NCBI GenBank assembly: GCA_963924555.1
Contig: OZ004588.1
Span: forward strand, 5,084,001-5,148,000
Length of the DNA stretch: 64,000 nt
DNA from: Crambe crambe
Taxonomy: Eukaryota > Porifera > Demospongiae > Poecilosclerida > Crambeidae
Direction: 5' to 3'
The notes under the pieces are model-generated. The model saw only the letters and a program-made list of their open reading frames with translations. It was not told the DNA's origin and ran no database searches. The position numbers and the translations under genes were made by a program. Shown piece after piece: positions 1,880-54,832 of this stretch; position 1 is the first letter of the stretch, and each line of letters starts with the position of its first letter.

Positions 1880-2161
1880 CACTTCACCTAGTCTGGCGTC
1901 ATCAGCCCAGCTTTTACTACACTTCACCTGATCCAGAGATGCATTCTCAGTATAGTAAACTAGAAAATTGTTGCCAAAGATCAGCTCTGCATAATAGTAT
2001 AAGTTCAAGGCAGACATTTGCCTCTCCTACATACATGCATGCCAATGACTGTGATTATGATTTCTTTTTATAAAGTGATAATATTAGTTATAATATCCCT
2101 AGGTGTATGCATCATCATTGTTCTATTGTTCTATTGTTGGGTAACTGCATGGTTCTATACT
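1880..2161 (-). repeat. Duplicated 3-prime flank of the PH-like gene
   Basis: Read on the minus strand this follows the PH-like gene at 2162-2797. It matches 51921-52160, downstream of PH-like copy 3, and partly 53676-53880, downstream of copy 4. The family therefore duplicated as gene plus flank, not as a processed copy. Confidence 0.7.
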
Positions 2162-2797
2162 TCATATTTTGACATTCAGAGCAGCCATTTGGAACTTGAC
2201 TGCTTCCACAAATTCGTCTCCATTCTGGCAGGTGATCTCGTATGAATCGATCTCCCACTGCACGCAACAACAGGGGAAGCACCACCTCATTAACATCATT
2301 TGGGGAGAGTTGTCCGTCACCTGGATTATCAATTTGCTGTGCCCGCGCACTTCTCTCCTGCGGCAGTCCTTTTCTTCTTTTATACCGTTGATGGACTTGA
2401 TATAACCAATGTTCTTGAGATCAATGCGAAAATTTCCAATGGTGCGTGGACATGGTGAACCCCCTGTATACACAATGCTTGAATTTGTTAAGTAGAGTCG
2501 AGTAGTAGAAGTACATGGACAACAATCAGAGCAGGTACATCGACAACAATCAGAGCAGGTACATCGACAGCAGGTACATCGACAGCAGGTACATCGACAG
2601 CAGGTACATCGACAACAGGTACATCGACAACAGGTACATCGACAACAATCAGACCAGCAACAATGGCATGGTTGGAAGCATGTTCGATTACGAAATGATG
2701 GATATCCTAAAATAGCCTCAGCGATGATATTTTCATCCATACTCACAGGCTGACTTGTAACCGTCATAGGCTGACTTATAACCGTCATAGACTCCAT
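2162..2797 (-). CDS. Small Cys-rich protein with predicted PH-like fold, copy 1
   Basis: Intact 211-residue reading frame on the minus strand, in one exon. The N-terminal part (about residues 1-40, with SQPVSMDENIIAEAILGYPSF) is shared by all four family copies. Residues about 42-95 are an array of Cys-Cys-Arg-Cys-Thr units encoded by a 15-bp minisatellite. The C-terminal 110 residues alternate hydrophobic strands (TRLYLTNSSIVYT, DFRIDLKNIGYIKSI, KLIIQVTDNSP) and end in a helix-like segment (DEFVEAVKFQMAALN), a pattern that resembles a PH or GRAM domain. I do not recognise the family, and the PH assignment is inference. The clustered cysteines could be palmitoylation sites or bind metal. Other copies lie at 25444-39336 (split), 51429-51920 (broken) and 53178-53675 (intact). 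Confidence 0.7.
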   Translation of the reverse strand: MESMTVISQPMTVTSQPVSMDENIIAEAILGYPSFRNRTCFQPCHCCWSDCCRCTCCRCTCCRCTCCRCTCCRCTCCRCTCSDCCRCTCSDCCPCTSTTRLYLTNSSIVYTGGSPCPRTIGNFRIDLKNIGYIKSINGIKEEKDCRRREVRGHSKLIIQVTDNSPQMMLMRWCFPCCCVQWEIDSYEITCQNGDEFVEAVKFQMAALNVKI

Positions 2798-18128: not shown

Positions 18129-18440
18129 AATGAGAAGCTTGAAAAAAATTATGCTATTAGCAATTGGGTTAGGTGTGTTATTATTGTATGGACAAACCTG
18201 CTCTGCCGCAGTTGTTTGTGGATTTCATCAAAGTAGGTGTGGAAACCGTTGTTATAATCATTTTTCACAATGATGCCTCAGTGGAGGAGTAGTCTTGTGG
18301 TTCCCGTGACAGCCTGTGTGGCAACCGATGCTACAATCCTTTTTCACAATGATGCTTCAGAGGAGGAATAGTTTGTGGTTCCCGTGAGAGCCTGTGTGAT
18401 AACCAGTGCTACAATCCTTTTTGCAAGATGTCATGGATAA
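18129..18440 (+). pseudogene. Cys-repeat secreted protein, pseudogene C
   Basis: Starts with an intact signal peptide matching genes D and E (LLAIGLGVLLLYGQTCSA). The first repeat then ends in TGA where the others have CGA, and a frameshift follows. Parts of three repeats remain, then a truncated tail. Its TATA region (near 18092) has changed from tatataaa to tataataa. A further scrap of one repeat is at about 18466-18500. Confidence 0.8.
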
Positions 18441-24085: not shown

Positions 24086-25440
24086 CTTGTGGTTTCATTC
24101 ATGAGTACACAAGAAGAAGAGAAAATATTAAACAGAAATCATTTATCAATGGTATTTTAGCAGAGCAGACTTTTGAATACATAATTATAAAGAAATGACA
24201 AATGAAGTACCTTAATTTGCACGCATGAAACACAAGAATTAGCACATGCAAAGTAAGGAGGCCATCATGGGTGATGATTATTCTTTCAACAGACTTCAGG
24301 ACCTCATTTGTGAACAATTAAGACACAGATGAAGGAAGAAATAGCAAATAAAGCATCTTGTCATGCAAAAGAACAGTGTTTCTCAAACATGCTGGAATGA
24401 AATTGTCCCAAACTTCAGTCATGCTCATAACTTGATTATCTCCATATACATACAGAATAGCTATTTTTTTCTCCCAATTTTTTCCCTCCCAATCCACACA
24501 GCCTGTCACGAGAATTCCTCCAAAGATGCCTCAGTGGTGGAGTTGTTTGTGGAATCTATCAAAGTAGGTGTCCACTATAAAGAGGTTCCACTGTATGCTT
24601 GGGTTTATAGTCTGAAAATATTAACTAACGATTGACAACTGAAATCAACGATGAATACCTCCGTAGCACTTATCAGGGGTGTGATGGGATGAGTGAGGGG
24701 TTAGTCACTCTGCCACCAGTAAGATTGGTATGCTGCCACCATCTTAGCTAGCTACAGCTGCAGGTTTTACACTGAGTGTAGGTAAGAAATCTTCTCATAG
24801 ATAAATACAAGACTAAAACAGAGGACACACAACTGACACAAACTATTCCTTTTATACTAAAGTCCACAGATCTCTAAATATAGTAACATTCACACTTTAA
24901 CAGAAACTTCTAGAACACACACTGGAAGGGTGACAAAAAGAATAGGCTAAACACATACAGGTGACAATGAATAAAGGATGACAGACAGAAGAATGATACT
25001 TAGAATAATGATGAACACACCCATACACACATACAGGTGACAATGAATAAAGGATGACAGACACAGAATAGAATAATGATGAACAAACACATACACACAT
25101 ACACGCACACATACAGGAGGTTCATGTGAGGCCGTCCCTCCACAAGGGGGACACTTCTAACACTTAGGACACAATTATGCACTGTACACATATTATGTAA
25201 TATGATAAAGAAAGTTGTTGCCAGAGATCTGTAATAACAAAAATATTATAATAATAGCTATACTCTATCTAAATAATAGGTGATTAATGGGCCTCTCCTG
25301 CATGCATGCCAATAATTGTGATTATGATGACTATGATTATGATTTTTAAAGTGGTGACATTAGCTAGCTACATATATCTGTAGGGTATGCATCATCATTG
25401 TTCTATTGTTCTATTGTTTGGTAGCTAACTGCATTGTTCT
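24086..25440. other. Intergenic with small repeats; no gene
   Basis: Holds a Cys-repeat gene scrap (24497-24575), an imperfect tandem repeat at 24955-25115 (unit with gtgacaatgaataaaggatg), and at 25270-25440 the diverged 3-prime flank of PH-like copy 2. No intact gene is seen. Confidence 0.6.
24497..24575 (+). pseudogene. Scrap of a Cys-repeat gene
   Basis: Reads cacacagcctgtcacgag (minus orientation of a repeat), then aagatgcctcagtggtggag and tttgtggaatctatcaaag (plus orientation). It is a short rearranged remnant of one or two repeats. Confidence 0.6.
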
Positions 25441-25443
25441 GCT

Positions 25444-25495
25444 TCATATTTTGACATTCAGAGCAGCCATTTGGAGCTTGACTGCTTCCACAAAT
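25444..25495 (-). pseudogene. PH-like copy 2, 3-prime part
   Basis: The last 52 bp of a family member, ending with the conserved TGA. The rest of the gene resumes at 38877, on the other side of the 13.4-kb transposon. The ACAAAT at 25490-25495 is repeated at 38877-38882. Confidence 0.85.
25490..25495. repeat. Left target-site duplication ACAAAT
   Basis: Matches 38877-38882 exactly. The uninterrupted family copies have one ACAAAT at this place (about 2209-2214 on the plus strand for copy 1). Confidence 0.85.
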
Positions 25496-25675
25496 GGTTC
25501 TTTCTTCATATAACTTGTACCGAGATTACATCATAGTGATGTAATAATGATATATGGCCTGTAGAGAACATAGTCTGAGTCTCTTGCGTCTCTAGCAGTC
25601 TCTATAAGTCTCTTACAGTCTCTCTGAGTCTCTTGCAGGCTCTCTGAGTCTCTTACAGTCTCTCTTGGTCTCTTG
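25496..25675 (+). repeat. Left terminal inverted repeat
   Basis: Identical by eye to the inverse of 38697-38876 for about 180 bp. Within it ATTACATCA and TGATGTAAT form a palindrome around TAG, a possible transposase-binding site. The last two thirds are satellite units. Confidence 0.9.
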
Positions 25676-26243
25676 CAGTCACTCTAAGTCTCTTGCAGTC
25701 TCTCTGGGTCTCTTGCAGTCTCTCTGAGTCTCTTGCAGGCTCTCTGAGTCTCTTACAGTCTCTCTTGGTCTCTTGCAGTCACTCTAAGTCTCTTGCAGTC
25801 TCTCTGAGTCTCTTACAGTCTCTCTGAGTCTCTCTTGCAGTCTCTCCTGGTCTCTTGCGGTCTCTCCTGGTCTCTTGCAGTCTCTCTGAGTCTCTTGCAG
25901 TCTCTAAGTCTCTTACAGTCTCTCTGAGTCTCTTGTGGTCTCTCTGAGTCTCTTACAGTCTCTCTTGGTCTCTTGCAGACACTCTGAGTCTCTTGCAGGC
26001 TCTTACAGTCTCTCTTGGTCTCTTGCAGTCACCCGGTCTCTCCTGGTCTCTTTCAGTCTCTCTGAGTCTCTTGCAGTCTCTCTGAGTCTCTTACAGTCTC
26101 TCTGAGTCTCTTACAGTCTCTCTGAGTCTCTTGTGGTCTCTCTGAGTCTCTTTGAGTCTCTTAAAGGCTCTCTGAGTCTCTTGTGGTCTCTCTGAGTCTC
26201 TTGCAGTCTCTTGTAGTCTCTTGTAGTCTCTCTGAGACTACAG
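25573..26243 (+). repeat. Left satellite array, outer part
   Basis: More than 30 imperfect copies of a 20-bp unit, gagtctcttgcagtctctct, with variants at the gcag position (acag, gtag, gtgg). It continues at 29577-30052 after the nested RT element. Confidence 0.95.
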
Positions 26244-26342
26244 AGACTTCCCCATTACATTCTTGTACTTCGTGATTCGTGTGATAAGTAAACAGATTCG
26301 TGTGTCGTCTTCTTCAGTTCAGTAGTCCGCCTCAGGGGGAAC

Positions 26343-26382
26343 AGTCCGGCTACCCTGCTACTGCAGGGTGTGCCTGGGACTT
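26343..26382 (+). promoter_or_regulatory. Strong hairpin in the RT leader
   Basis: agtccggc, ccctgc, loop tact, gcaggg, gcc, ggact pair in nested order, giving 14 base pairs in three blocks. Elements of the R2 type often carry a self-cleaving structured leader; I could not fit the full double-pseudoknot here, so the function is open. Confidence 0.4.
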
Positions 26383-26469
26383 GAAAACCCACTCCCTAAC
26401 GCAGGCGTATTTATAGTCGTCCAGCAGGCGAGGTGTGCTCCATTTAGAACTCTTTTCCACCACTGAACG

Positions 26470-29400
26470 ATGCCTTCATCCACTCGTACAGTTTCCACTC
26501 GCTGTTGTCGCTGCAATGGCACTGCCAAATGCCTAAGGTGCTCTTGTGCCAGGAGTGGTGTTCCCTGTTCACGGTGCCTACCTGGAGAGTCGGGGAAATG
26601 CCGAAACACCCTCCCAAGTGGCCCCTCAACTCTAACCTCTAAATCTTCAACTGCCTCCTTGGCACCCCACTCCCCCTTCAGCTCCACGACATCCTCACAG
26701 ACCACATCTACCTCTGTTGCCTCAAGCAGTGAGCCAGCCCCCTCTGTGACTTCCTCCTCTCCAAACCTACCTCCTCTCTCTGTCATCCTCCAGACTCACA
26801 TCCCCACCCTTCACCATGTCCCAAAAGGAGCTAGGGACAAGTGGGCCCACACCCTCAGTGACTGCCTCTCCTCCACGGCAAATTCCCCCAATGACCTCTC
26901 CAACTGGTCCAGACTTTTTATGCTGGCAAAATGTGTGTTATCCAGCCCTGCAGCTGGACACCTTCTACGATGGCGGGAGATCTTGCGTACAGTGAAAACA
27001 CGCCTCCAACAATGGTCAGATGGGGACTTGAACAACCTGTGGTCAGAGGCTGTGACGAATGCCCAATCCCTTTCCAAACGTAGGGAGCGGTCCGCATCAG
27101 CCTCTTCCTCCAGTAATATCAAGAGGGCTCGACAAGCTGTGCAGGATGGTCTATACAGCAAGGCCATCAAAGCATTAACATCTGAGGGTCTGGCTAACCC
27201 ATCAGCAGAGGTGATAAAAGAGATGAACAATAAGCACCCACAGGCCCCTCCCCCTGTTCCACCTCCTGGCCCTGTACCTTCGTCTCCAACTCTTACAGAA
27301 TCAGTCATCCTACAAGGAGTGAAATCATTTCCCAATGGCTCGGCCCCAGGTCCATCTGGTCTGCGCCCAAGCCACCTTCGAGAAGCGGTTGGATGTCCAT
27401 CCCCTGACTGTGCCACCCTTGCCCTCTCCTCCTTGACTCGCTTCATTAACCTCCTCGCCTCTGGCAAACTCCCTCCCTCCATTCTACCTCACCTTTGCAG
27501 TGCTGTCCTCCTTGCAATCAGGAAAAAGAATGGAGGCTTGCGCCCCATAGCAGTTGGTGAAGTATTACGCCGGCTGACCTCGAAGTGTCTTGTTAATGTC
27601 GCTCGCCAATCAGCCCTCTCCACTCTCACCCCCCTCCAACTAGGTGTGTGTGTCAAAGGCGGGTGCGAAGCAATCATTCATGCTGCTTCCAACCTAATGT
27701 CTTCCTCCCTCCCAAGACATCGATGGACGCTCCTCCTTGACTTCAGTAATGCCTTCAACTGCATTAACCGGGAGGCCATGTTTGTGGAGACTCGTAACCG
27801 CATCCCCACCCTTTCTGCCTGGATTGAAGCATGCTATTCCTGCCAACCTTTCCTCTTCATGGGCAAAGAAACCATCCGCAGCTCCTGTGGTGTGCAGCAA
27901 GGGGACCCCCTAGGTCCATTGGGGTTTGCCTTATCTCTCCACCCTCTGATAGAGAAGATCAGGGATGAAGTCCCTGGCCTCTCCCTCAATGCTTGGTACC
28001 TCGATGACGGCACCCTCATGGGTCACCCTGAGGACCTGGCTGCTGCCCTCCAAATCGTTGAGAGAGAGGGCCCCCTCTTGGGCCTCCACCTTAACAGAGG
28101 AAAGTCTCTTCTCTTCATTCCCAAGGAAGCGGATCATTCGCAATCTCCACTACCAGCCGACATTCCCATCACACGACGGGGCTTCTCCCTCCTTGGCTGC
28201 CCCATTGGACCACCTGATTTCTGTGAGGAAATCTTTCAGGCTAGGCTGACGAAAGTGAGGACTTCCCTGGGTGCTCTGCGAGACTTAGGTGACTCCCAAG
28301 CAGAGATTACTCTCCTACGTTCCTGTCTCGCACTCCCCAAGGTCTCTTTTGTCCTCCGAGCCTGTCCTCCCAGCCATATACAGCAATCCTCGTGTGATTT
28401 CGACCAAGCCATCCGTGACACCCTGGAATCTATTGTGGGTGGTCCGTTGTCTGATTGGTCATGGCTTAAGGCAAGCCTCCCCAGCAGTCATGGTGGCCTT
28501 AATCTTCGCAGTGCCTCACTACATGCTCCAGCTGCTTTTTTGGCCTCTAGCACAGCCTCCAAGCATCTGGTGGAGCGCATCCTTGGTCACCCGCCTAGCT
28601 CTACACTCCACACCATCCCTGCCGTGAAGGCCCTTGCCACCACAGCAGCCCGTTCTGACTGGCAAAATATTGATGATATCGATGTCCCTCTACGGCAACG
28701 CTCTCTTTCCCACAGCATTGATGAGGCCTCCTTCCAGAACTTACTCTCTTCTGCCCCCACCATCCGCTCACGAGCTCTGGCATACTCTTCAAGTCTGCCT
28801 CATGCAGGGGACTGGCTTAATGTGGTGCCATCAACATCACTGGGTCTTCACCTTCAAGACAGAGAATTCCAATGCTGCCTGCGGTACTGGCTGGGAATTC
28901 CTCTCCAAAGTAATCCACTTCCTTGCCCAGAATGCCGGGACACTGCTGACATCTTTGGTGATCACCAGGTTGGGTGTAGTGGAAACGGTGATCGCATTTC
29001 CCGGCATAATGCCATACGTGACGTGGTCTTCTCTGCAGCCCAGTCTGCAGCCTTGGCACCTTCCAAGGAGACCCCTGGCCTCCTTGCCAGCTCCCTCTCT
29101 CGCCCAGCTGATATCCTTCTACCCAATTGGAAAGGGGGCCGTCCTACAGCTTTGGATGTCCATGTAATCAGCCCCCTGCAGCAGCAGACTCTAAATGAAG
29201 CCTCCTTCACCCCAGGCCATGCCCTTCAGGTGGGAGTGAACCGCAAGCTAGCATCCTCTTTATCAGCTTGCCGCTCGGCAGGCTTGCACTTCATTCCTCT
29301 GGTAGCAGAAACATTAGGGGGCCTTGCTGACGACACAATTCAAACTGTTCGCTCCATTGGCAAGGCCATCGCAGACAGAGTGGGTACTACAGATTCCTCC

Positions 29401-29514
29401 AACTCTTCCAAGCACCTCTTTGGTCGACTAGCCATCGCCCTGTGGCGTGGCAACGCCTGTTTATGGCTACATCGCCTCCCAACTCTCCCCCCCTCTCTAG
29501 ACGGAGTGCCATGA
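26470..29514 (+). CDS. Reverse transcriptase with restriction-like endonuclease
   Basis: Intact 1014-residue protein. Residues about 12-46 are a Cys-rich putative zinc cluster (CCRCNGTAKCLRCSC and CSRCLPGESGKC), followed by a Ser/Thr/Pro-rich linker. The RT domain spans about 290-560: GSAPGPSGLRPSHLRE, RPIAVGEVLRRL, motif A LLDFSNAF (near 424), motif B GVQQGDPLGPL and motif C YLDD (near 511; tyrosine where many non-LTR enzymes have F-A). The C-terminal part has a C-x2-C-x9-H-x3-C knuckle (818-835) and then RPADILLPNW with ALDVHV (878-899), which fits the PD-(D/E)XK-like endonuclease of R2-type elements. It would nick target DNA and prime reverse transcription there. Clade assignment (R2/NeSL/CRE-like) is inference. 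The unbroken frame suggests recent activity. Confidence 0.8.
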   Translation: MPSSTRTVSTRCCRCNGTAKCLRCSCARSGVPCSRCLPGESGKCRNTLPSGPSTLTSKSSTASLAPHSPFSSTTSSQTTSTSVASSSEPAPSVTSSSPNLPPLSVILQTHIPTLHHVPKGARDKWAHTLSDCLSSTANSPNDLSNWSRLFMLAKCVLSSPAAGHLLRWREILRTVKTRLQQWSDGDLNNLWSEAVTNAQSLSKRRERSASASSSSNIKRARQAVQDGLYSKAIKALTSEGLANPSAEVIKEMNNKHPQAPPPVPPPGPVPSSPTLTESVILQGVKSFPNGSAPGPSGLRPSHLREAVGCPSPDCATLALSSLTRFINLLASGKLPPSILPHLCSAVLLAIRKKNGGLRPIAVGEVLRRLTSKCLVNVARQSALSTLTPLQLGVCVKGGCEAIIHAASNLMSSSLPRHRWTLLLDFSNAFNCINREAMFVETRNRIPTLSAWIEACYSCQPFLFMGKETIRSSCGVQQGDPLGPLGFALSLHPLIEKIRDEVPGLSLNAWYLDDGTLMGHPEDLAAALQIVEREGPLLGLHLNRGKSLLFIPKEADHSQSPLPADIPITRRGFSLLGCPIGPPDFCEEIFQARLTKVRTSLGALRDLGDSQAEITLLRSCLALPKVSFVLRACPPSHIQQSSCDFDQAIRDTLESIVGGPLSDWSWLKASLPSSHGGLNLRSASLHAPAAFLASSTASKHLVERILGHPPSSTLHTIPAVKALATTAARSDWQNIDDIDVPLRQRSLSHSIDEASFQNLLSSAPTIRSRALAYSSSLPHAGDWLNVVPSTSLGLHLQDREFQCCLRYWLGIPLQSNPLPCPECRDTADIFGDHQVGCSGNGDRISRHNAIRDVVFSAAQSAALAPSKETPGLLASSLSRPADILLPNWKGGRPTALDVHVISPLQQQTLNEASFTPGHALQVGVNRKLASSLSACRSAGLHFIPLVAETLGGLADDTIQTVRSIGKAIADRVGTTDSSNSSKHLFGRLAIALWRGNACLWLHRLPTLPPSLDGVP

Positions 29515-29576
29515 CTTGGACTTGTTTGTCTGTGTATAATCTAATTCCGAAAATTATTAAATATTTTATTGAATAA

Positions 29577-30052
29577 AAGTCTCTTGCAGTCTCTCTGGGC
29601 CTCTTGCAGTCTCTCTGAGTCTCTTGCAGTCTCTCTTGGTCTCTTACAGTCTCTCTTAGTCTCTTGCAGTCTCTCTGAGTCTCTTGTAGTCTCTCTGAGT
29701 CTCTTACAGTCTCTCTGAGTCTCTTACAGTCTCTCTAAGTCTCTTGCAGTCTCTCTGAGTCTCTTGCAATCTCTCTGAGTCTCTTGCAGTCTCTCTGAGT
29801 CTCTTGTGGTCTCTCTGAGTCTCTTGTAGTTTCTTTGAGTCTCTTGAAGGCTCTCTGAGTCTCTTGCATGCAGTCTCTGAGTCTCTTGCGTATCTTGCAG
29901 AATCTCTGAGTTTCTTTCAGTTGCTCTGAGTCTCTCTCAGTCTCTTGCAGTCTCAGAGTCTCTTGCAGTCTCTCTGAGTCTTTTGCAGTCTCTCTGAGAC
30001 TCTTGTAGTCTCTCTTGGTCTCTTGCATGTCTTGCGGTCCCATGAGTCTCTC
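29577..30052 (+). repeat. Left satellite array, inner part
   Basis: Continuation of the 20-bp gagtctcttgcagtctctct array beyond the RT element, more degenerate toward its inner end. Confidence 0.95.
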
Positions 30053-30329
30053 AGAATACCTTTACACACTAAACAAGTCCAGTACATCCAAAGCATATAG
30101 CTAGTATCTGCATACATGCACCAGTTAATGGTTGGGTATTTTTTGTTTAAGTAATTATGACAAGCACTACATCGTCATTTAGAGGGTGTGTGCTTAATTA
30201 GTTGGTATGTGCACATACAACAGCAAATTATATATAATTATTGCACATTTTGAATGAAACAATCAAAACAAAGCACGAATGAAAGATTATTCAGAATCAT
30301 GAATCAAATTGAGGGTAGCTATCATCCAA

Positions 30330-33300
30330 TTATAGTCCAAGTGGATTATCTGAGTTTATATATTTACTCCAATCCGGAAGTGCTGTATTTTGTCTGGTAT
30401 ACTTTTTAGGTGGACATGGACAGTCATCTTCAGAATATTCAGTACGCTTTCTTGGTTTTCTTTGTGTATTGTCTTTGGCATCTTTATTGCCATCAGGATT
30501 GTCTTTCTCCTTATCTTCAGAAAGAGGACTCTTATCTTCAGTAGGAGAAATCCTGCCATCTTCAGCAATGTTATCTTTCAGGTCTTCAGCAAGAGGACTG
30601 TCTTCTTCCTTATCTTCAAGACTGTCTTCTTCCTTGTCTGAAGATGTGCTGGCAGAGGCAGCTGGTGATGTAACTGCATGAAAGCAATTTGACATGGGTA
30701 TATAATAATCAAGCAATCATTGGAGACAGAATGAATACCTTGTTTCATTGCAGCTTGAAGAGACGGTGGCAGTTTGTCTAGCCAAATTACTGTGCATTTT
30801 CTTGATCTACTATTAGTCCGTCTGCGAATTACTGGATTTTTGCTATCTGATGGCACGAAATCCTTCGCTACATTGTGCTTGCCCATACTATTTTCCTTCA
30901 CTGCTTTTCTGAAGAGAGCTTGATCTACCGATACAGGGATATCATCAAGGCAAATGCCAACTACCTCCTTCCCATTATATGTCATCCCTGTTCTCATTGC
31001 TTGAAGTACCTGGAAATATAATATACAGTAAAGTATAGCTGTTGTCTTTTTTTAAGATAATGCAAAAAGCTACACTTCTAATAAGTTAGCCTAAGACTAT
31101 AGTGCCTGCTGGGATTAGCTACAGCGGTGATACATATGTGATATTAGTACCCCTGCATGCAGTCAAATTGATAGATACCAGCCTACACTTCAAATAGAAG
31201 ATAGCTACCGTTGTACTGAGTAGTACAAAGAGTCAAGCATGAGCGCTCAAGCAAGAAGCACTAGCACGTCAGCACTTTGGTGCCAAGGTGTATACTAATA
31301 CATTACAGTAGGTATCGTTAGAAGTGTGAAATACTGGCCTTATAGACTTTTCCAGCATGAGTGTGGCTCTTAGCCCATTCTGTTAATTGCATTAGGACTT
31401 CAGCTACAACATTCAGATCACCAGAAGTACTTCGCATAACTGAAGTAGATTGACTTGAGGTCAGATGTGGATGGATTTCTTGCATGAATTCCTCTATTTC
31501 TTCTTTCAAGTATGGCATCTGTGCCTCTTCAATTAGCTATTTAGTGATGAGAACAATTAATTCTGGCAATTCTAATAGTTAGCTATACCTGTTCTGCAAA
31601 GTAAAGAAGACAGGCATACCCTGTACATAATCGAGGATCAATTCCAGGAAGTCTACACTGCAGGGTTGATTCGGCTGGAGATATCACTTTTGCCACTTTC
31701 AATGAATTTTTTCCCCAAACTGATTGCCCACCCAATAGCACTTGATGCCTCTCTTTGTACCTTAGCTAGTAAGCTAAATTCCTTTCCTTCTTCTTCTGTG
31801 TTGGGTCCAATTGATGGAGTGGTAAATGGTAGTAAAAGGGCTCGTGAACTGTACCTGAGTGCAGAAACAATATTATAACTTACATTCTATACAGTGTAAC
31901 AAATTAACACCCAAAGAGATGTAGCTAATCATTCTTGCAAATTTGTTTGCCTCAATGGTGGCAAGTTGTGCATATGAGTACAAGGACAATCAAACCATTT
32001 TTGGAACAACTGTTTTGCTATACAGCTAAAACTAAAATCATACACTGAATATCCATACCTTTGAATTGTTCCCATCGTAAAATTGCAACATATTATAGGG
32101 ATAGATCGGGGCTTTCGCAACCCAACTTTCATGTTTCCAGTCTGTCGCCCATTACAAAGGTCAATAAGAATTTCACCTATCCCATCTGCACTCTTGGGAT
32201 CATCAAGACTGAATGGTAAGGTGGACTTGCAACACCTTTCCAAACATAAAGTATCAGATGTACTCTTAGTTTTCATCAAATGACCACAATCTTCCTGGCC
32301 ACACAGAGACAAAGCACACCTTACTGCTGAAGATTTACCTGCATGGATAAAGGTTGCAGCTTACACTAAGTATACACACAAAAAAACAACAACAAAAAAA
32401 CCACATGTCCATGTAAGCTGACACTAAAAAAATACCTGTTTCACTTTCTCCAACCAGCATTGGAAGAGGGCATGCATTGTATGTTTCTACCAGCAATGTA
32501 TGTGATTTTGGCTTTTGCACTTAGTTAACATTTCAGCACAATATATAGGTGCTGATGAAATGCATTGTAAGCCTGGGAAAATGTGACTGACTTACATGGT
32601 ATGAAGTTATGCTTGAACACTTTCTTCATAAGCTCAAGAAGGTCGTTCAATGGTTTCACAGATTGAAGGGGGAGTTTGATATCACTCTGTAGATTGATAA
32701 CTGTGTATGGCATGTTTTTATTTTTGCTACTAAAGTCTATGCATGGTCCTCCAATTGGCTGCCAGATCCATTTAGATTCACTTTCTGGTATCTGAATACC
32801 ATCTTCATTAATATGTAGAGATCTATTTATAACCCAGACATTATCTCCAGGTTGTTTTCCAGCACAGAGCAATCCTTTTTTAACTTTTGTTGGATCATTA
32901 AAAGCAAAATTTTTTTCGAGATGCTGTTGAAATTCAGAAACTTCCTTATCTGAAAGGGAGCACACGAACCCCCCAGATCCAAATGTCGATTTTATGTCTT
33001 TAAGGAAAGTCTGTCGCAGAAGCATGGAATCAATAGTGTAATAGCACAGCCTGTATAATTAAAGGTTGAGACATAGAATTAACTCTTTCAAAGCTGGTCT
33101 GATTATGTATATATATATATATTAATTTTTTTTTAATTTTTTAATTATTTTTTTTTTGGGGGGGGGGGGGGGGGGACCAACTTCATTATAACTCGTGAAG
33201 TGAACTAATTACAGAAATAATAACCCTAGCTAGGTCTTCAAGGTTCCTTGCTATCACTGAACTTACCTTTTTTGTCCATCGCTTCTGCGTTTTATCCAAG

Positions 33301-33595
33301 CAAAGAATCCAGCATTTTCTGAGTCGACATAAGTGGCCAAATCAATAGAAAAATTAGACTTCTCCCTATACTCCCCCTTGGAAGAGACCGTTCCAAATGT
33401 GGAATTCTCCAGGTCAACCTTATAAAACTTAGAAAAGAAATATATAGCTATAAATGTCAGTATGTCAACTTAGCCAGCTAGCATGCTTGATTAAATAATT
33501 GTGCAGGTATAATTATTATACCTGCACAATTATGATATCTACAATACCTCTCGATGGAGCTCCTGGTTTTCTGCTTGCTGGAAAGAGTCATTCAT
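30330..33595 (-). CDS. Transposon-borne P-loop NTPase, nine exons
   Basis: Minus-strand exons, all with GT-AG borders and matching phases: 33548-33595, 33267-33427, 32596-33050, 32436-32519, 32059-32338, 31589-31854, 31348-31536, 30739-31009, 30330-30673. The product is about 700 residues. Joining exons 4 and 5 creates a Walker A loop, LVGESETGKSSA, followed by ALSLCGQEDC and a possible Walker B (GEILIDLCNG). The C-terminal exon is acidic, Ser-rich and ends with a basic RKPRKR (possible nuclear signal). Exon 6 reads in one frame at its start (SAIGWAISLGKKFIE) and another at its end (RLPGIDPRLCTGYACLLYF), so there is a one-base disruption within about 31680-31745. Function unknown; by analogy with other transposons it may be a helicase-like or targeting ATPase acting with the divergent transposase. 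Confidence 0.7.
33159..33176. repeat. Poly-G tract in NTPase intron 2
   Basis: A run of about 17 G following a T-rich stretch. Confidence 0.8.
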
Positions 33596-33692
33596 CTTTA
33601 AACTTCAGTCAAAATCTGTTGCTGAGCATGCAAAAGCATGAGATATTCAATTATTGAAGAAAAAAAACCACGTGTACATAATAGCATTTAAA
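33596..33692. promoter_or_regulatory. Shared divergent promoter region
   Basis: Only 97 bp separate the two start codons. The stretch contains cacgtg at 33670-33675 and is A-rich. Bidirectional expression of transposase and NTPase is inferred from this spacing. Confidence 0.55.
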
Positions 33693-36658
33693 ATGGATGC
33701 AGTGAGGCTTATTTGTTTCTTTTCGTTAGTATTTGCTACCGAAATCCAAGTTACATCAGGATTCAAAGTTCCTCTTGAATGGAAAATGTATCTATCTAAA
33801 GTGGTTGAAGATTTTTTGAGGTATTAGCTAACTGTAAGTAGCTAGTGGACTTTTTAATCTTTTTGTGAATTTAGGAATCCGGAGTGTGTCATTGTCCCTC
33901 CTCCTCCTCCTTATTCCATATCTAGCAGTAATCCCGCTCAAATGTTTCTCCCACCAGTTATTGTATGGGACCCATTTTTGTCAATTCCATCATTGAATCT
34001 TCAATGTGTAGAATGCAATCAAGAAATCAAAAGAAATGCATGGAAACTTGGCACATCTGCAGGACTCGAACCTAGATTATTGCATAGTATTGAATCAACA
34101 GTTGTCCTCATCTCAGCTCGTTATGTTTGCCCAAATAGCCACCAATTCTTTACTACTGATCCAAGAGTCCTTGAACTAATTACATCTGAACAGATTCCAT
34201 TCATACTGTTTCATAAGAATGGTTTCTTGAGATCCTTTGTTGATATTGTTATTGGATTAATCGAAGAGGGACTGTCTGTTTCAGCTGTGGAAAGATTTGT
34301 CAGTAAGCAAAGGAAATTAGCCAGTTTGAGGAGATCAGATCAGGTTATTAATACACTGTCATTAAATGAACTTGACTTAAGCCAGATCATCCCATCATTA
34401 CTCCTCGAAACTCCATACCCAAGTAATGATATGATCTGCAAGTGCTTTCTTGCTGAGTATATGCTCAATAGGAAGATGTATACTAATGCTATGTCTAGGA
34501 TACTTGCACAAGAATCCATCAGCTTTGATCATACCTTTAAAGTAGCTACTAATATCGGCTACCTTAGAAGTGATGGTAAATGGATAACACAGTATGATTC
34601 TGTATTTATTGTGCTTAATGAAAAAGGCCAGGTAATGGCTTGGCAATTTACCGAAACTACATCAATGGATAATGTTAAGACACTTCTTCTTGGTGTTAAA
34701 GAAAGGATGGATGTAGGTAATCATAAAACCCTTATAATTGCAGATAACTGCTGTAGCATCAAAGGAAAATTAATTGAAGTATTTGGTAATGAAATTAATG
34801 TAAAATTAGATTTATTCCATGCTGTACAGCGGCTTACCAAAAAAATGCCCAAACGTCATCCACTATATTCCCTATGCATTACTGACCTGAGGCTTATCTT
34901 TCGACAACCTGATGATTTAGGTTACAAGCGATTGAAAAATACTCCAAATCCTGTAAAGATTATAGATAATCTGAATAAGTTCATCAAAAAGTGGAGTTAC
35001 TGTGATACAAATGGCTGGGTAGTACTCAATGAAAATGTATTAAAAGAAGCAAAAAATCTTGAAATCCACATAAATAAAGGATGCCTGTCTGATATTCCTC
35101 CAGGTTTTGGAACAAACCGCAACGAGCGATTGCATCGGCACATCAAACCTCATTTTAGTAGGACTCGTCTAGGTTTGCCTATGGCACTTGCACTAATGAC
35201 AGTATTACTATATCAATACAACTGCAAGTCACAAGGAAAAGAAACAGAAAGACAGTCAATCACCTTAGAAGAAGAGAGTGCATCAAAATATCATTATGGC
35301 ATAAGTGAAAAAGATGTGGAACAAACAATATGGGGTATTCACCCCATAGACAATACTTATGGTTTTGATAAGTCAACCACAACAACACTGGCACTGGATG
35401 AGAGTGTTTCAAAACTTATTACTATTGAAGAACTTATGAATATAATTGAAAAGGGACTTCACCTTTGGAATGCAGCCAAATCAATGAATTCAAATTCACT
35501 GTTTCAGTACCAATTCTTTCCTTTTGTATCTTCTGTATCCAGTATATTTTTCAGTAACTTAAGCACTGATGCTCCCAGTCATAGTACAAATCTTGATGGC
35601 ATTATTAATTCATGGAAATTGAAGAGGCAAGAAGTCAGTAAAGATGGAAATTGCTGTTTTGTTGCAGTAGCTATTGGGTTACAGTTTATTAACACCAATA
35701 TATCCTCTGAATTGAAAATAGTTCATCCAGAACTAAGATATAACTGTGTGCATTCTCTGAGCCAGCAATTACGCCAGATTGCAGTACGTGAGTGGACTAA
35801 TAACAGCAGCTATTACACAGACTTCCTAGGTGAATGTAATATACAAGAGGAAGCTGAGAAGTTCAACCAATTAGGATATTTTTATTCTGACTTAGGGGAC
35901 ACAGTTTTACATGCTTTGTCAAAAGCTCTTGGAATACACTTTATAGTGTTTACAACTCTTGAATGTTATCCAGTTATCCAGATAGTAACACAAGAAATTA
36001 AATGTGCTACACCAGTGTATCTTGCATACAATCATAATGGTCTGGGACATTATGATGCAGTCGTACCCGTGGCATCTGAGTCAACCTCAACAACTGTGGT
36101 GGAAGTTCCCAAAACTCGTATAGATTATTGTACATGTGGTAAAAATGCAGTCACTCAAGAAGCAGAAAGTTGTGTGCCAATAACCTCTAAGTATACTACT
36201 ACAATCCGGTGTTCATGTCTAAAGAGCAATCGAATGTGCACATCACTTTGTAGATGTGTGAACTGTGGAAATGTGAGCATGGAAGACGACCTGAAGCAGT
36301 ACTTCTGCACACACGAAAAAGCAGAAGGCATAGCCACCAAATCAATATTAAAAAGAGTGCTGTTTTCGGTATCGCTGAGGGTGAAGACATGTCACCTGGA
36401 GCAAGATCAAAATTTGAGTTTTTTATTTTAGAAGGAGTGTTGCAGTATTTAAAAAATAAAGAAATTGAACCAAGTGCAAACAATATATTACAAATATTTA
36501 ATACTATCACGGATATCGTGGATTCCTTTAAAGAGAAGTTACCTATTGGAAAAAAGAATTCTCATGATGTCGACAATTTCTTAAAGGAGCATCAGCACAA
36601 TTTTGATGCATTCATGGCCCTTTGTGGTGCACAATTGCATTTAAATGCCGAAATTTAG
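33693..36658 (+). CDS. DDE transposase fused to OTU protease and CXC domain (frameshifted)
   Basis: Two exons, 33693-33820 and from 33875, with a 54-bp intron. The N-terminal region has a C-x2-C and a later CPNSHQFF, like the zinc-binding domain that precedes many such transposases. The DDE core shows Asp in SFDHTFK (near 34526), Asp in IIADNCCS (near 34743), LDLFHAVQRL, and Glu in TNRNERLHRH (near 35124). An OTU-type cysteine protease follows: KDGNCCFVAVA with its nucleophile Cys near 35652, and GLGHYDAVVP with the catalytic His near 36050. Next comes a CXC zinc domain (CSCLKSNRMCTSLCRCVNC). At 36271 two extra bases shift the frame; the downstream frame to 36658 carries a conserved-looking tail. 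So the copy is either damaged or recoded there. It presumably acts in the nucleus on the element's ends. Confidence 0.8.
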
Positions 36659-37023
36659 TTCAATGATTTCTATGCATGGAACTAATAACTAGCTATATTA
36701 TTAAGGTTTGATTCTTGTATAATTGATAATTATCATTACAATTATTTTTCTTTCTGATTGCATGTAGGGGGTTGATATAATTCTAAAGTTGTGTTAACTT
36801 GAAGAGCCATAAAAATTCTCATAGGTGGAGGAAAATAAATTTACTTGGGGGGGCCAACCCCAAACCCCCATTGCACCATGTGTACCAGACAATAGTTGTG
36901 ATTTAATTAAAAAACAAGAGTCAAAAATAGAGTTGAAAATGTTTCACTTTGCATATGTAGTCATGTATAATTGTCTCCTATCCCTGGCCCCCATGGTTCC
37001 GACTAACAGAGACTAGAGTTATA
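36659..37023. other. Spacer inside the giant transposon
   Basis: Transposase 3-prime region; no gene or repeat recognised before the right array starts. Confidence 0.5.
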
Positions 37024-38805
37024 ATAGATTTGGAGACTGCATGCATGCAAGAGACTCGGAAACTGCATAGAGACTGCATGCATGACTCAGAAACTGCAAG
37101 AGACCAAGAGAGACTCAGAAACTGCAAGAGACCAAGAGAGACTAAGAGTGACTGAAAGAGACGGCAAGAGATGCAAGAGAGACTGCAAAGGACTCGGAGA
37201 GACTACAGCCAAGAGACTCAGAGAGCTATAGCTAGACTGCACGCATGCAAGAGACTCAGAGACTGCAAGAGACTGCAGAGAGACTGCAAGAGACACAGAG
37301 AGACCAGAGAGACTGCAAGTGACTCAGAGTGACTGCATGCAAGAGACCAAGAGAGTCTATACATGAGACTCAGAGAGACTGCAAAAGAGACTGCAAGAGA
37401 CTCAGAAAGACTGCAAGAAACCCAGAGACCCAGAGTGACTGCAAGAGACCAAGGGAGACTACATGAGACTCAGAGTGACTGCAAGAAACCAAGGGAGACT
37501 ACATGAGACCCAAAGAACCTACATGAGACTCAGAGAGACTGCAAGAGACCAAGAGAGACTATACATGAGACTGCATGCAAGAGACCAAGAGAGACTACAT
37601 GAGACTCAGAGAGACTGCAAGAGACTCTGAGTCTCTTGTAGTCTCTGAGTCTCTTGCAGTCTTTCTGAGAGACTGCAAGAGACTCAGAGCTCAAGAGACC
37701 CAGAGAGACTACAAGAGACCAAGAGAGACTACGTGAGACTCAGAGAGACTGCAAGAGACTCAGAAAGAATGCAAGAGACTCAGAGAGACTGCAAGAGACT
37801 CAGAGAGACTGCAAGAGACCCAGAGAGACTGCAAGAGACCCAGAGAGACTACAAAGGCCAAGAGAGACTACATGAGACTGTGAGAGACTCAGAGAGCCTG
37901 CAAGAGACCAAGAGAGACTACATGAGACTATAAGAGACCAAGAGAGACTCAAAAAGACTGCAAGAGACTCATAGAGACTCATAGAGACTCAGGGAGATTG
38001 CAAGAGACCCAAAGAGACTGCAAGAGACCCAGAGAGACTGCAAGAGACTCAGAGTGACTGCAAGAGACCAAGAGAGACTACATGAGACTCAGAGAGCCTG
38101 CAAGAGACCAAAAGAGACTACATGAGACTCAGAGAGACTGCAAGAGAGACTGCAAGAGACTCAGAGAGACTGCAAGAGACTTAGAGAGACTGTAAGAGAC
38201 TCAGAGAGACTGTAAGAGACTCAGAGAGACTACAAGAGACCAAGAGAGACTGCAAGAGACTCAGAGAGACTACAAGAGACTGCAAGAGACTCAGAGAGAC
38301 CACAAGAGACTCAGAGAGCCTTCAAGAGACTCAAAGAGACTCAGAGAGACCACAAGAGACTCAGAGAGACTGTAAGAGACTCAGAGAGACTGCAAGAGAC
38401 TCAGAGATACTGCAAGAGACCAGGAGAGACTGTAAGAGCCTGCAAGAGACTCAGAATGACTGCAAGAGACCAAGAGAGACTGTAAGAGACTCAGAGAGAC
38501 TCAGAGTGACTGCAAGAGACCAAGAGAGACTGTAAGAGACTCAGAGAGACCACAAGAGACTCATGCAGAGAGACTGTAAGAGACTTAGAGACTGCAAAAG
38601 ACTCAGAGAGACCGCAAGAGACCAGGAGAGACTGCAAGAGAGACTCAGAGAGACTGTAAGAGACTCAGAGAGACTGCAAGAGACTTAGAGTGACTACAAG
38701 AGACCAAGAGAGACTGTAAGAGACTCAGAGAGCCTGCAAGAGACTCAGAGAGACTGTAAGAGACTTATAGAGACTGCTAGAGACGCAAGAGACTCAGACT
38801 ATGTT
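37024..38805 (-). repeat. Right satellite array
   Basis: About 1.8 kb of the same 20-bp unit in inverted orientation (agagactgcaagagactcag and variants). A short block at 37619-37667 runs in the opposite direction, a local inversion. Open frames across it are artefacts of the period. Confidence 0.95.
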
Positions 38806-38876
38806 CTCTACAGGCCATATATCATTATTACATCACTATGATGTAATCTCGGTACAAGTTATATGAAGAAAGAACC
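38697..38876 (-). repeat. Right terminal inverted repeat
   Basis: Inverse of 25496-25675; ends gaagaaagaacc against the ACAAAT duplication. Confidence 0.9.
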
Positions 38877-39336
38877 ACAAATTCGTCTCCATTCTGGCAG
38901 ATGAATTGGACTGAATCGATATCCACTTCAAGCAACAGAGGAACCACCACCTCAGTGACATCATTTGGGGAGAGTCATCCTTCACCTGGATTATCAATTT
39001 GCTATACCCACGCACTTCAGTCCTTTGACAGTCCCTTTTAGTTATTATGTCATTGATGGACTTGATATAAACAATATTTTTGAGGTCAATGCGAAAATCT
39101 GCATAGGTGCGTGGAGATGGTAAACCCTCCAAATATACAATGCTTGAATTTATCAAGTAGAGTCGAGTAGTACAATCACAGCACTGACACCAGGTACAAC
39201 AATTAAAGCAGGAAAAGCAGCCAGATAATTTGCAGCACGCTCAATCACGAAATGATGGATACCCTAAAATAGCCTCAGCAATGATACTTTCACCATCCAT
39301 ACTCACAGGCTGACTTATAACCACTAAAGACGTCAT
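38877..39336 (-). pseudogene. PH-like copy 2, 5-prime part
   Basis: Minus-strand start codon at 39334-39336. The frame is open through SQPVSMDGESIIAEAILGYP and then meets TGA at the position where other copies have CGA; a further one-base deletion lies near 38920-38945. The coding region is cut at 38876 by the transposon and resumes at 25495. The family promoter is present at about 39345-39440. Confidence 0.85.
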
Positions 39337-51408: not shown

Positions 51409-51428
51409 TAATAGACAAGAATCCAAGA

Positions 51429-51920
51429 ATGGCATCTTTAGTGGTTACAAGTCAGCCTGTGAGTGTTGATGGTGAAAATAGCATTGCTGAGGCTATTTTA
51501 AGATATCCGTTATTTCGTGATCGATCATGCTGCAAATCAGACTGCTTTTCCTGCTCTGATTGTTGTACATGTAGCTACCTGCTGTACTGATCGACTCTAC
51601 TTGACAAATTCAAGCATTGTGTATACAGAGGGTTTACCACTTCCATTGCCACGCACCTGTGCAGATTTTCGCATTGATCTCCAGAACATATCAAGTCCAT
51701 CAACGACATAATAGCTAAAAGGGACTGCAAAAGGACTGAAGTGCGTGGATACAGCAAATTGATAATCCAGGTGAAGGACGATTCTCCCCAAATGATAACA
51801 ATGAGGTGGTGGCTCCTCTGTTGCTTGCAGTGGGATATCGATTCAGTCGTATTCATCTGCCAAGACGAATTTGTGGAAGCAGTCAAGCTCCAAATGGCTG
51901 CTCTGAATGTCAAAATGTGA
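51429..51920 (+). pseudogene. PH-like copy 3, pseudogene
   Basis: Start codon and N-terminal region are intact (SQPVSVDGENSIAEAIL). The Cys segment then runs into TGA near 51589 through a frameshift, eight bases are missing near 51692 (tggttata in other copies), and the C-terminal part is readable in another frame. It is closest to copy 2. Confidence 0.85.
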
Positions 51921-53070
51921 AGTATAGAACCATTGCAGTTACCCAACATTAGAACTATAGAACAATGATGATGCATACACCTAGGGATATAGCTACTTCA
52001 GCTAATATAATCACTTTATAAAAAGAAATCATAATCATGGCAAATGTCTGCCTTGAACTTAACACTATAATGCAGAGCTATTATATTACAGATCTTTGGC
52101 AACAATTTTCTAGTTGAAAATGCTCTTTGGATCAGGTGAAGCAGTGGAGCTTGATGATTTCCACAGCTCTCTTTAGTGTAACTTGTAAGGGGATCAGTGA
52201 ATGTATGGGGTATATCTTCTAATATATAGTGTTACAGTATATAAGTAATATTTTAGAGTATAACTTACATTAGCTGTATAGCTACGTACCTTTAGAGTGT
52301 AACTAATTGTTATCATTAAGTGTTTAGTCAACAGCTGTATTATGCCTATGGGGGACATGTGTAGAGGAAAAGTAGAAGAAGAAAATGTATCCCATAGGCA
52401 TAATAGCTACATTGCAGTATGCAAGTTGCAGTTTCAGAGTCTTGGACAAATGAATGCTGCTACTTCATTGTCCCCACTTGGAATGACACAGCCATTCTCT
52501 GTGACTGGCACCGTCCAGTTCCAAGCACCCAGTTCCGGACCCCTCCCAACCTTCTCTCTCCCCTCATGCTTCTTCCATCTGCTATATATGCATTTAGAGA
52601 CTTCACTTCAAGACAGCTGCCATGGTGTGAACAAAAAGATCCTCTTCCTACAATGTCTATTCTTCTCTTGTAGCTAATGCAGCACCACTGGACTTGAAAA
52701 CAAGATGTGTCGGTAGAATGTCAAATGCAAATGGCATAATCCAAGTAATTATTCCCTGTTTCCATTTTAGCAATTAAACTACAATTTATTTTTGTGGTCT
52801 TACTCGGCTATGGACTATGGTATGATTTCCAGTGATTCAGTTCTACTGATTGTAATGTGTGAACTTTAAGCGAAATTTGTCATGCGAATTTAACTTGTAC
52901 CCTTCACAAATAAGGATCTGTAACTGAGTCACAAATGAACATTTTGGATTTAACTTGTACCCTTCACAAGTAAGGATCTGTAACTGAGTCACAAACACTT
53001 AGTTCAGTATGACATTTACCGGCATATGACACTGATGCAATGCTAACACCAAGTATTAATAATAACATCG
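51921..53070. other. Flank and spacer; no gene recognised
   Basis: The first 240 bp are the duplicated 3-prime flank of the family. An open frame of 84-111 codons near 52342-52677 has no recognisable domain. A short inverted pair (tgcctatgggggaca and tatcccataggcat) flanks 52342-52405. Confidence 0.5.
52886..52995 (+). repeat. Tandem duplication, 60-bp unit
   Basis: aatttaacttgtacccttca through aactgagtcacaaa occurs twice with exactly 60-bp spacing. Confidence 0.9.
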
Positions 53071-53177
53071 TTAATTATTAATGATGTAATTTTTCCTGAA
53101 CAGGACACTATAAAATTCCCCATCATATATAAGCTATGAATCTGTGCATGAACTGACTGCAAGATAAGAATCCAAGA
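53071..53177 (+). promoter_or_regulatory. Promoter of PH-like copy 4
   Basis: Family string with cctgaacagg and a TATA-like acactataaaatt about 70 bp before the start codon, then gtgcatgaactgactgcaag. Confidence 0.65.
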
Positions 53178-53675
53178 ATGACGTCTTTAGTGGTTACAAG
53201 TCAGCCTGTGAGTATGGATGGTGAAAATATCATTGCTGAGGCTATTTTAGGACCTCCATCATTTCGTGATCGTGATCGAGCATGCTGCAAATCATCATCT
53301 GACAACAATAGCTGTTTTTCTTGCTGTGATCGTACTACTCGACTCTACTTGACAAATTCAAGCATTGTGTATACGACGGAGGGTTCAGCAATGCCTAATA
53401 CATATGCAGATTTTCGCATTGATCTCAAGAACATTGGTTATATCAAGTCCTTCAACGGCATAGAAGGTAAAAGGGACTGCTTCAGGTATGAAGTACGTGG
53501 ATGCAGCGCATTAATAATCCAGGTGAAGGACGACTCTCCCCAAATGATGTCACTGAGGTGGCAGTTCCCCTGCTTACAGTGGGATATCGATTCAGTTACA
53601 TTCACCTGCCAGAATGGAGACGAATTTGTGGAAGCAGTCAAGCTCCAAATGGCTTCTCTGAATGTCGAAATGTGA
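53178..53675 (+). CDS. Small Cys-rich protein with predicted PH-like fold, copy 4
   Basis: Intact 165-residue single-exon frame. Conserved N-terminus (SQPVSMDGENIIAEAILG), a short Cys segment (ACCKSSSDNNSCFSCC, six cysteines) in place of the long array of copy 1, and the strand-rich C-terminal domain (RLYLTNSSIVYT, FRIDLKNIGYIKSF, LIIQVKDDSPQMMSLRW, ending in EFVEAVKLQMASLN). The length difference from copy 1 lies almost entirely in the Cys segment. Family not recognised; intracellular, possibly membrane-attached through the cysteines, by inference. It has its own promoter and no disabling change, so with copy 1 it is the best candidate for the functional member. Confidence 0.75.
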   Translation: MTSLVVTSQPVSMDGENIIAEAILGPPSFRDRDRACCKSSSDNNSCFSCCDRTTRLYLTNSSIVYTTEGSAMPNTYADFRIDLKNIGYIKSFNGIEGKRDCFRYEVRGCSALIIQVKDDSPQMMSLRWQFPCLQWDIDSVTFTCQNGDEFVEAVKLQMASLNVEM

Positions 53676-54832
53676 AGCAGAACAATGCAGTTAACATTAG
53701 AACAATAGAACAATGATGATGCATACACCTACTCACCACTTTAAAGGCATAATCATTATAATCACAGTCATTGCATCATGTAGGAGGGGCGAATGTCTTT
53801 TCAGCTGTTAGATACAGCTAATATAATGTTTTAGTTAGTACAGATCATTGACAACAATTTTCTAGCTTAAGCATTACATCTTTTTATGTATGCAGCTGCC
53901 TGCCACTTACATTACTCACCAGCAAAATCTAAGGAGTTGAAGTACAAATGAATATCAGCTCTAAAAGCCTATAGAAAATACTTGTTCACTCGCTGTAATT
54001 AAAAATTAATGTTGTATAGTGCCCTAGTACTCGTGATAATTTGTGTGTGTAAAGCCAGTGGTGCTCTACAAAATGCTCTCTGTGAAGCAGTGGAGCTTTT
54101 AATGATCTCTTAAAACAGCTCTCTTTAAGGGATCAGTGCATGGGGCTAGTAATGATAGAGTAGTGTTATTGCTATTACATTTAGAGTGTAACTTTTATAT
54201 AAATCATTGTATTTACAATAAGTGATCTCGAAAGCTACCTTTAGAGGTGTAACTAATCATTAAGTGTTATTGTCAAGATCAACAGCTATCTTTTAAAGTG
54301 TAACTTGTTATTGTAATTACAAGTCAACAGCTATATCCTTGTATATATATAATATATAATAATACGATATATAAATTATTGTGTTAGAACACTTATAGCT
54401 ACAAGTTATACACTGAAAAGATAACTGTTGAAATCATTACTTACTGTAATTACAATAGCACTTAATAAATATGTATAATTATAAGTTAGCTAGATAGTTG
54501 TTGATCATAATTATTGTGAGTAAGAGTATATAAATCATTAGGTGTTATTGTAACCTCGGTAATGATGGTGAAAAACTGCCAGCTCCGAGTCAAATTAGGA
54601 CAGAACCTATAAACCACAAGAATAATAGCTATTAAGTAAGAGCCCACCCCATCACATTACATGTAGCTATGATGAAGCAATGTCACAGATGTGACACAAA
54701 GGATTCCAGTGATCTTGCAACATGAAATTCTGAATACCAAACCAAAAATTTACATAGCTTCCTTTTAGCTAAGTAGCCAAACTCTAAAGCCACAATTAAG
54801 TCCTTTGAAAGAAGGCTATGTAAATCTTGGTT

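Follow-up and report, generated by a model that had tools for sequence, protein, structure and literature searches.

A DNA transposon of the sponge Crambe crambe with satellite-built ends, a recurring GTCTC motif and a predicted IS256/Mutator-type transposase

What kind of mobile element builds its ends from satellite DNA, and could such a satellite be of use to it? This question is raised by positions 25496-38876 of a 64,000-nucleotide stretch of the sponge Crambe crambe (hereafter the window; C11:5084001-5148000 in our numbering of contigs), for which a preliminary description, made from the sequence alone, had proposed a 13.4-kb DNA transposon. The element was compared with the genome (143 Mb, 119 contigs) and its proteins with profile and structure collections. 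The reading that we favour, with a probability of roughly 70%, is a cut-and-paste DNA transposon of approximately 10 kb with a nested retrotransposon inside, whose predicted IS256/Mutator-type DDE transposase would assemble on satellite ends with helically spaced GTCTC motifs.

Ends, empty site and sister copies

The element is bounded by inverted ends that both open with GGTTCTTTCTTCATATAAC (the right end as the reverse complement at 38876). Their identity, previously put at about 180 bp, is unbroken over exactly 180 bp, and ACAAAT is present directly outside both ends. The sequence that the transposon interrupts is a member of a local repeat. As the preliminary description had held of undamaged family copies, the uninterrupted CTTCCACAAATTCGTC, that is, the empty site, is found in three paralogs of the split repeat in the window, and it is also intact in a 95% identical repeat copy outside it (C11:5062492). 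The label 'PH-like' for the interrupted gene copy, on the other hand, found no backing in Pfam: at E values up to 1, neither two open reading frame (ORF) fragments of the split copy nor one 172-amino-acid ORF of a paralog gave a match.

A search with the left 205 bp, in which only the best candidates were scored and very common words were skipped, returned 63 genome matches at four places only: the window element, C20:4.28-4.29 Mb, C3:975 kb and C5:4.56 Mb. Differing ends in other copies had been named as evidence against a transposon; the end sequence is the same at all four places, with C5 differing by one base. Since all 63 matches fall at these places, satellite this similar was seen only with this transposon in the best-candidate search. 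The C20 place holds a sister copy (C20:4281959-4291830, 9.87 kb) that keeps both ends and has its own 8-bp duplication, CCCCAATC; a misjoin of the window sequence at 25495/38877 is therefore unlikely. We refer to the window and C20 copies as family A. A second, related group, subfamily 2, is represented by copies on C1, C3 and C17, whose aligned parts are 99.2-99.7% identical. Its C1 copy is about 7.75 kb long, with the ends GGCTCTGAGCAC... and ...GTGCACACAACC. The C17 copy (C17:6434065-6446031) is longer: its matched ends, flanked by an 8-bp duplication, are ~12 kb apart, so that it holds ~4 kb more than the C1 copy.

The subfamily-2 copies on C1, C3 and C17 are flanked by 8-bp duplications (CACTCTGT, GGGGTCCC and GAAATCCT). 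All four other complete copies thus have exactly 8 bp (four of five with the window counted), and we therefore take 8 bp to be the rule. Single-end matches (C3:975 kb, C5:4.56 Mb, and relatives at C3:1.80 Mb and C8:2.15 Mb) stand outside this tally, as do weaker end-pattern matches at loci L020 and L022 and two on C6 and C9. In the window, 6 bp (ACAAAT) are repeated outside the symmetrical ends; the left flank CCACAAAT and the right end ...GAACCACAAAT fit with 8 bp if the terminal CC is shared. A shared CC would fit the loss of two C from a run of four, and we take the window copy to be slightly worn. The ACAAAT duplication reported earlier does flank both ends, but the duplication of the family is 8 bp, not 6. 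As a separate observation, three end types that otherwise differ all have TTACATCA and its complement a little inward of the terminus (window 25526-25545; L038, about 8650-8690; the ends of L023 and L024).

Over window positions 30033-37029 the window and C20 copies are 97.4-97.6% identical, and the reverse transcriptase block of the window element has no counterpart in the C20 copy. This block contains a 1015-amino-acid ORF (26467-29514, plus strand) that matches RVT_1 at 7e-17 and whose best PDB sequence match is to R2 proteins (1.3e-10). At least 51 further matches to the block lie in the genome (best 40 of 130 candidates scored); 37 of the 51 stop between query positions 3375 and 3426, the sole full-length one among these being C6:7031923. 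Judged from the matches, this is the pattern of a 5'-truncating non-long-terminal-repeat (non-LTR) retrotransposon. Because the C20 copy lacks the block and the block is dispersed in the genome, we interpret it as a nested insertion. The proposed DNA transposon therefore stands, but ~3.3 kb of its 13.4 kb is nested retrotransposon. One might instead regard all 13.4 kb, reverse transcriptase included, as one composite mobile unit, given the length of the ORF and the fact that the same satellite lies on either side of it; with a sister copy free of reverse transcriptase and at least 51 matches elsewhere, none of which touches the satellite parts of the query, we give that idea practically no credence and treat it as ruled out. 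A satellite-targeted retrotransposon is likewise ruled out, since none of the 51 other matches extends into satellite. The same rearranged retrotransposon pattern was seen twice on C16 (1334470-1337212 and 1407622-1410364), 73,152 bp apart, which suggests a segmental duplication.

The GTCTC motif of the satellite arrays

Tandem Repeats Finder (TRF) placed satellite with a 20-bp unit inward of each end (Table 1), as had been claimed from the sequence, and in family A the arrays are mirrored at both ends. Eight of the 12 family loci were scanned for arrays, flanks included; the other four are the window element and pieces of the C20 copy. A tandem array adjoins the transposase match at all eight scanned loci and lies upstream of it at seven.

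Occurrences of GTCTC and its complement were counted in 14 arrays, each compared with 100 dinucleotide-preserving shuffles of itself. Of the first ten arrays, family A contributed two, subfamily 2 and the C11-2466 locus one each, and other elements six (transposase identity to the window 60, 53, 37 and 33%, plus two related ends); the four further arrays were the right arrays of the window element, the C20 copy and subfamily 2, and the array at C3:975 kb. The GTCTC count exceeded the maximum of the 100 shuffles in 11 of the 14 arrays (for example 58 vs 25, 40 vs 17, 77 vs 33, 145 vs 68 and 136 vs 48). In these 11 arrays GTCTC is nearly confined to one strand (complement at most 3) and is spaced mainly 9, 10 or 20 bp apart; the window background outside 25000-39000 has GTCTC and GAGAC together at 0.92 per kb. 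By unit sequence, read by eye, the 11 arrays represent about five array lineages, and hence they are not independent. Between array lineages the rest of the unit changes, whereas this one motif keeps its single strand and its spacing of about one helical turn; it persists even where as many as two thirds of the residues of the transposase differ between relatives. Because the motif is repeated beside several distant relatives, GTCTC is likely a docking ladder for the element's own predicted transposase.

We infer that the CXC domain of this protein reads GTCTC/GAGAC. According to excerpts of published work (the form in which papers are cited here, unless a main text is named), the CXC domain of MSL2 recognizes, with low specificity, some GA-rich elements of 21 bp (PMC9506574) and puts an arginine into the minor groove (PMC4974476). 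Alternatively, the arrays might be read by a host factor or used in transcription, rather than being read by the transposase. The Drosophila host protein CLAMP also binds GA-rich elements (PMC9506574), and the array position upstream of the transposase match at seven of eight loci would suit a role in transcription. Nevertheless, the mirrored arrays at both ends of family A, together with a transposase that has a CXC of its own resembling one that binds some of these 21-bp elements, argue against such a use, which we regard as unlikely.

The predicted transposase and its NTPase partners

The gene content given in the preliminary description, a transposase-OTU-CXC protein plus a P-loop NTPase, was recovered. 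Predicted DDE core residues are D224, D296 and E423, and the OTU residues are D596, C599 and H731 (numbering from 33858). The predicted core model matches the solved structure of ISCth4 (IS256 family) over 325 residues and has 126 residues between the second D (D296) and E423, and the CXC domain has MSL2 as its PDB match. From structure and conservation, the OTU domain is predicted to be an active-looking deubiquitinase, lying in the same protein as a predicted DDE core and MSL2-like CXC. In the subfamily-2 protein, Pfam at E values up to 1 shows only OTU and MSL2-CXC.

The transposase frames of the window and C20 copies differ by 14 synonymous and 12 non-synonymous changes over 802 ungapped codons; this shows purifying selection between them. 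All three subfamily-2 copies (C1, C3 and C17) keep an open frame across the 783-codon transposase exon; the two pairs of copies that were compared differ by one or two substitutions in 775 codons. Subfamily 2, at least, has amplified recently. We also noted a signal-peptide-like hydrophobic N-terminus in family A (window 33693-33820), in subfamily 2 (L038 1906-2805) and in 7 of 12 scorable homologs of a 40-member set, which is odd for a nuclear enzyme; scoring excluded nine homologs without the reference motif and the rest with fewer than 40 residues before it.

The NTPase gene of the window is divergent from the transposase gene, with start codons 97 bp apart, and is frame-broken near 31653. 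Its closest match is a Dysidea avara protein (46% identity over 99%), and the two homologs of the family-A NTPase fall narrowly short of the DUF927 cut-off (E 0.0004 and 0.0013). An NTPase of this type was not found in subfamily 2; as judged from its ORFs, subfamily 2 has a minus-strand DUF3987 gene downstream of the transposase (E 1.4e-14, above the cut-off). Since two branches have different P-loop NTPases, the ATPase partner appears to have been recruited repeatedly. DUF3987 has 16 genome matches, of which three are the subfamily-2 copies and one (C3:3148012-3151205) has a KDZ transposase match no more than 3 kb away; such genes are therefore not special to this transposon family, and KDZ elements may carry the same NTPase as subfamily 2.

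In a quick, midpoint-rooted tree of 51 sequences (40 family members, subfamily 2 and ten more homologs), the window protein lies in one deep half and subfamily 2 in the other. Named hosts of homologs among the matches listed are the stony corals Desmophyllum pertusum and Oculina patagonica. None of 98 pattern matches in prokaryotic genome contigs and 5 in viral contigs was confirmed as this family.

Table 1. Features of the transposon and its insertion site, in window positions
Feature	Position	Strand	Remarks
Left target-site copy CCACAAAT	25488..25495	.	8 bp; final 6 bp ACAAAT repeated right after the right end
Left terminal inverted repeat	25496..25675	+	Identical to the right one over 180 bp; satellite already from 25578
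Left satellite array	25578..26236	+	TRF; 20-bp unit AGTCTCTTGCAGTCTCTCTG; GTCTC x58, mostly every 10 bp
Nested non-LTR retrotransposon	26270..29561 (limits approximate)	+	Foreign to the transposon; missing from the C20 copy
Remainder of left array, cut off by the nested retrotransposon	29578..30032	+	TRF and comparison with the C20 copy
Spliced P-loop NTPase gene	30333..33595	-	GESETGKS, DUF927-like; exons read by eye, checked against C20
Transposase exon 1	33693..33820	+	Hydrophobic N-terminal segment; GT/AG junction, frame open into exon 2
Transposase exon 2	33875..36431	+	Cys/His-rich helical N-terminal part, DDE core, OTU, CXC (domains predicted)
Frame with conserved C-terminal domain	36254..36658	+	Frame-shifted in the window copy
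Right satellite array	37030..38794 (TRF 37109-38794)	-	Same motif, opposite strand; GTCTC x136 read inward
Right terminal inverted repeat	38697..38876	-	180 bp, partner of the left repeat
Right target-site copy ACAAAT	38877..38882	.	Equals CCACAAAT if 38875-38876 (CC) are counted in
Paralog with intact target site (empty site)	53025..53863	-	Sequence comparison
Paralog with intact target site	51413..52038	-	Sequence comparison
Paralog with intact target site	2020..2510	+	Sequence comparison

Two further features of the window lie outside the transposon. An open 854-amino-acid Gypsy-like pol ORF (39865-42429) starts ~1 kb to its right, with RVT_1 and RNase H above the cut-off and a weak zinc knuckle and protease. 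Four TRF arrays of a 78-bp (26-codon) tandem repeat (16058-16620, 18237-18422, 20215-20716 and 46509-47015) have a unit that reads by eye as a cysteine-rich peptide, possibly belonging to a family of repeat proteins.

Superfamily placement and a possible mechanism

The preliminary description could name no well-known superfamily with certainty. This holds in that the window protein lies outside the Pfam MULE (Mutator-like element) and KDZ profiles; it does not hold in that the core is predicted to be IS256/Mutator-like and satellite-built termini have been published for Rehavkus. With MULEs and Phantom, the family shares a predicted Mutator fold, long inverted repeats and a duplication within the MULE range of 8-11 bp (PMC6446971): 8 bp exactly in four of five copies, and 6, or 8 with the shared CC, in the window. 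The helical insert between the second D and E, of the length given above in the predicted model, corresponds to one of about 99-138 residues in prokaryotic MULE relatives (PMC3942029). Aphid Phantom has a minisatellite after its transposase ORF (PMC6446971). Its zinc fingers, by contrast, are listed as FLYWCH or SWIM rather than CXC, and the Pfam MULE profile (PF10551) misses our family: it gave no match to the window protein at E values up to 1, it was not among the matches listed (25 of 36 families) for the 40 family members, and by eye none of its 54 genome matches lies at a locus of this family. Transposase_mut weakly matches a single member (E 0.084). A profile-profile comparison of the core with the genome's MULEs, in one mixed alignment of eight proteins, found nothing. 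Three MULE matches of equal score stand 40 kb apart near the start of C7 (14218, 54174 and 94126), as if in a 40-kb tandem duplication.

With the IS256 family the core shares its predicted fold, through the match of the model to solved structures and the DDE placement with a helical insert; of 40 members, 5 are matched by the IS256 profile of NCBIfam at E values up to 1 (best 4.5e-5), and the window protein is not among them. IS256 elements differ in being bacterial insertion sequences and, to our knowledge, are short and without OTU, CXC or satellites. In the fold search, P, hAT and other families are not among the matches listed, which excludes nothing. The ISL3 profile, DDE_Tnp_ISL3 (PF01610), weakly matches 2 of 40 members (best E 0.056) and no place in the genome, and gives no clear backing to membership in ISL3. 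Ginger1 resembles the family in that its transposase carries a C-terminal OTU (or Ulp1) protease, but it has a Gypsy-like integrase core and 4-bp CCGG-type duplications instead of 8 bp (PMC2836005). Some Mutator elements carry Ulp1 (PMC2836005); the words protease and cysteine are absent from the main text of the Phantom/Rehavkus paper (PMC6446971). A KDZ (Zisupton-like) transposon is very improbable: Zisupton is reported with 8-bp duplications (PMC12730594), but the KDZ profile (PF18758) gives 54 genome matches of which none lies at this family's loci (by eye, against 57 family matches), it does not match the window protein at E values up to 1, and the fold match is to IS256. We therefore consider KDZ membership unsupported.

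A closer contender is a plain sponge Rehavkus or Mutator element of an existing superfamily, the satellite of which grew passively by slippage or gene conversion and whose motif has no role. Rehavkus has a minisatellite before its 3' terminal inverted repeat and serves as the Mutator outgroup (PMC6446971), and Rehavkus-1_TC, at 9.5 kb, contains a 164-bp satellite in its inverted termini (PMC10218199); going by these descriptions, size range, satellite-bearing termini and a Mutator-related catalytic domain are held in common, and the fold predicted here is IS256-like. Set against this, Rehavkus is described with a 9-bp duplication and a PHD finger (PMC6446971), whereas our elements have 8 bp, OTU and CXC, and at E values up to 1 Pfam shows only TCR/CXC, and no PHD finger, in the window protein. 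The 164-bp unit likewise differs from ladders with a 9-20 bp step, and slippage alone predicts no single motif kept on one strand while the unit changes across lineages. Overall we find this explanation rather unlikely. In the excerpts of open-access PMC literature no OTU plus CXC on a Mutator-fold transposase was found; Repbase may list one.

Several results weigh against the transposon and docking-ladder reading that we prefer. GTCTC is unused in 3 of the 14 arrays (the two subfamily-2 arrays and the short one at C11-2466, located downstream of its gene), and hence the motif is not universal. If the shared-CC argument is set aside, the window duplication is 6 bp. The CXC and DDE parts of the window protein are below the cut-off for all Pfam models (TCR E 0.011). 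When the core was compared with MULEs in four groups, the results were near background: the best group reached a probability of 4.3% (P 0.0097; reversed control P 0.5), and the reversed control of another group (P 0.037) outdid the other three forward comparisons (P 0.25-0.26). Lastly, no complete family-A copy has both genes open, the window copy being frame-broken in the transposase C-terminus and the NTPase and the C20 copy interrupted in the transposase.

Under the preferred reading, a transposon of ~10 kb, enlarged to 13.4 kb by the nested retrotransposon, would likely move by cut and paste through its predicted IS256/Mutator-type DDE transposase. The CXC domain and/or the N-terminal part would read the GTCTC ladder, and several transposase molecules might load on one helix face, pairing the two ends. 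The OTU domain may guard the complex or host partners from ubiquitin-dependent removal, and the P-loop NTPase (DUF927-like in family A, DUF3987 in the other branch) would be an accessory, perhaps helicase-like or a loading factor. A bolder and less probable proposal is that these elements constitute an undescribed animal superfamily, sister to Mutator and Rehavkus, in which the transposase's own MSL2-like CXC domain reads a helically phased GTCTC ladder at the ends, OTU shields the transpososome from ubiquitin and a helicase-type NTPase was recruited separately by each deep branch; the pairing of transposase and ATPase partner would be a layout of two proteins that is otherwise typical of transposons of bacteria.

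Earlier work has described transposon ends built from satellite, in Rehavkus and some Phantom elements, and the excerpted accounts give them no function. The conserved one-strand motif makes it testable whether transposon-borne satellites serve as transposase binding ladders, and in this way how a mobile element can seed satellite DNA. Moreover, a predicted deubiquitinase and CXC reader in one transposase chain would open the handling of ubiquitin by a eukaryotic transposase to study.
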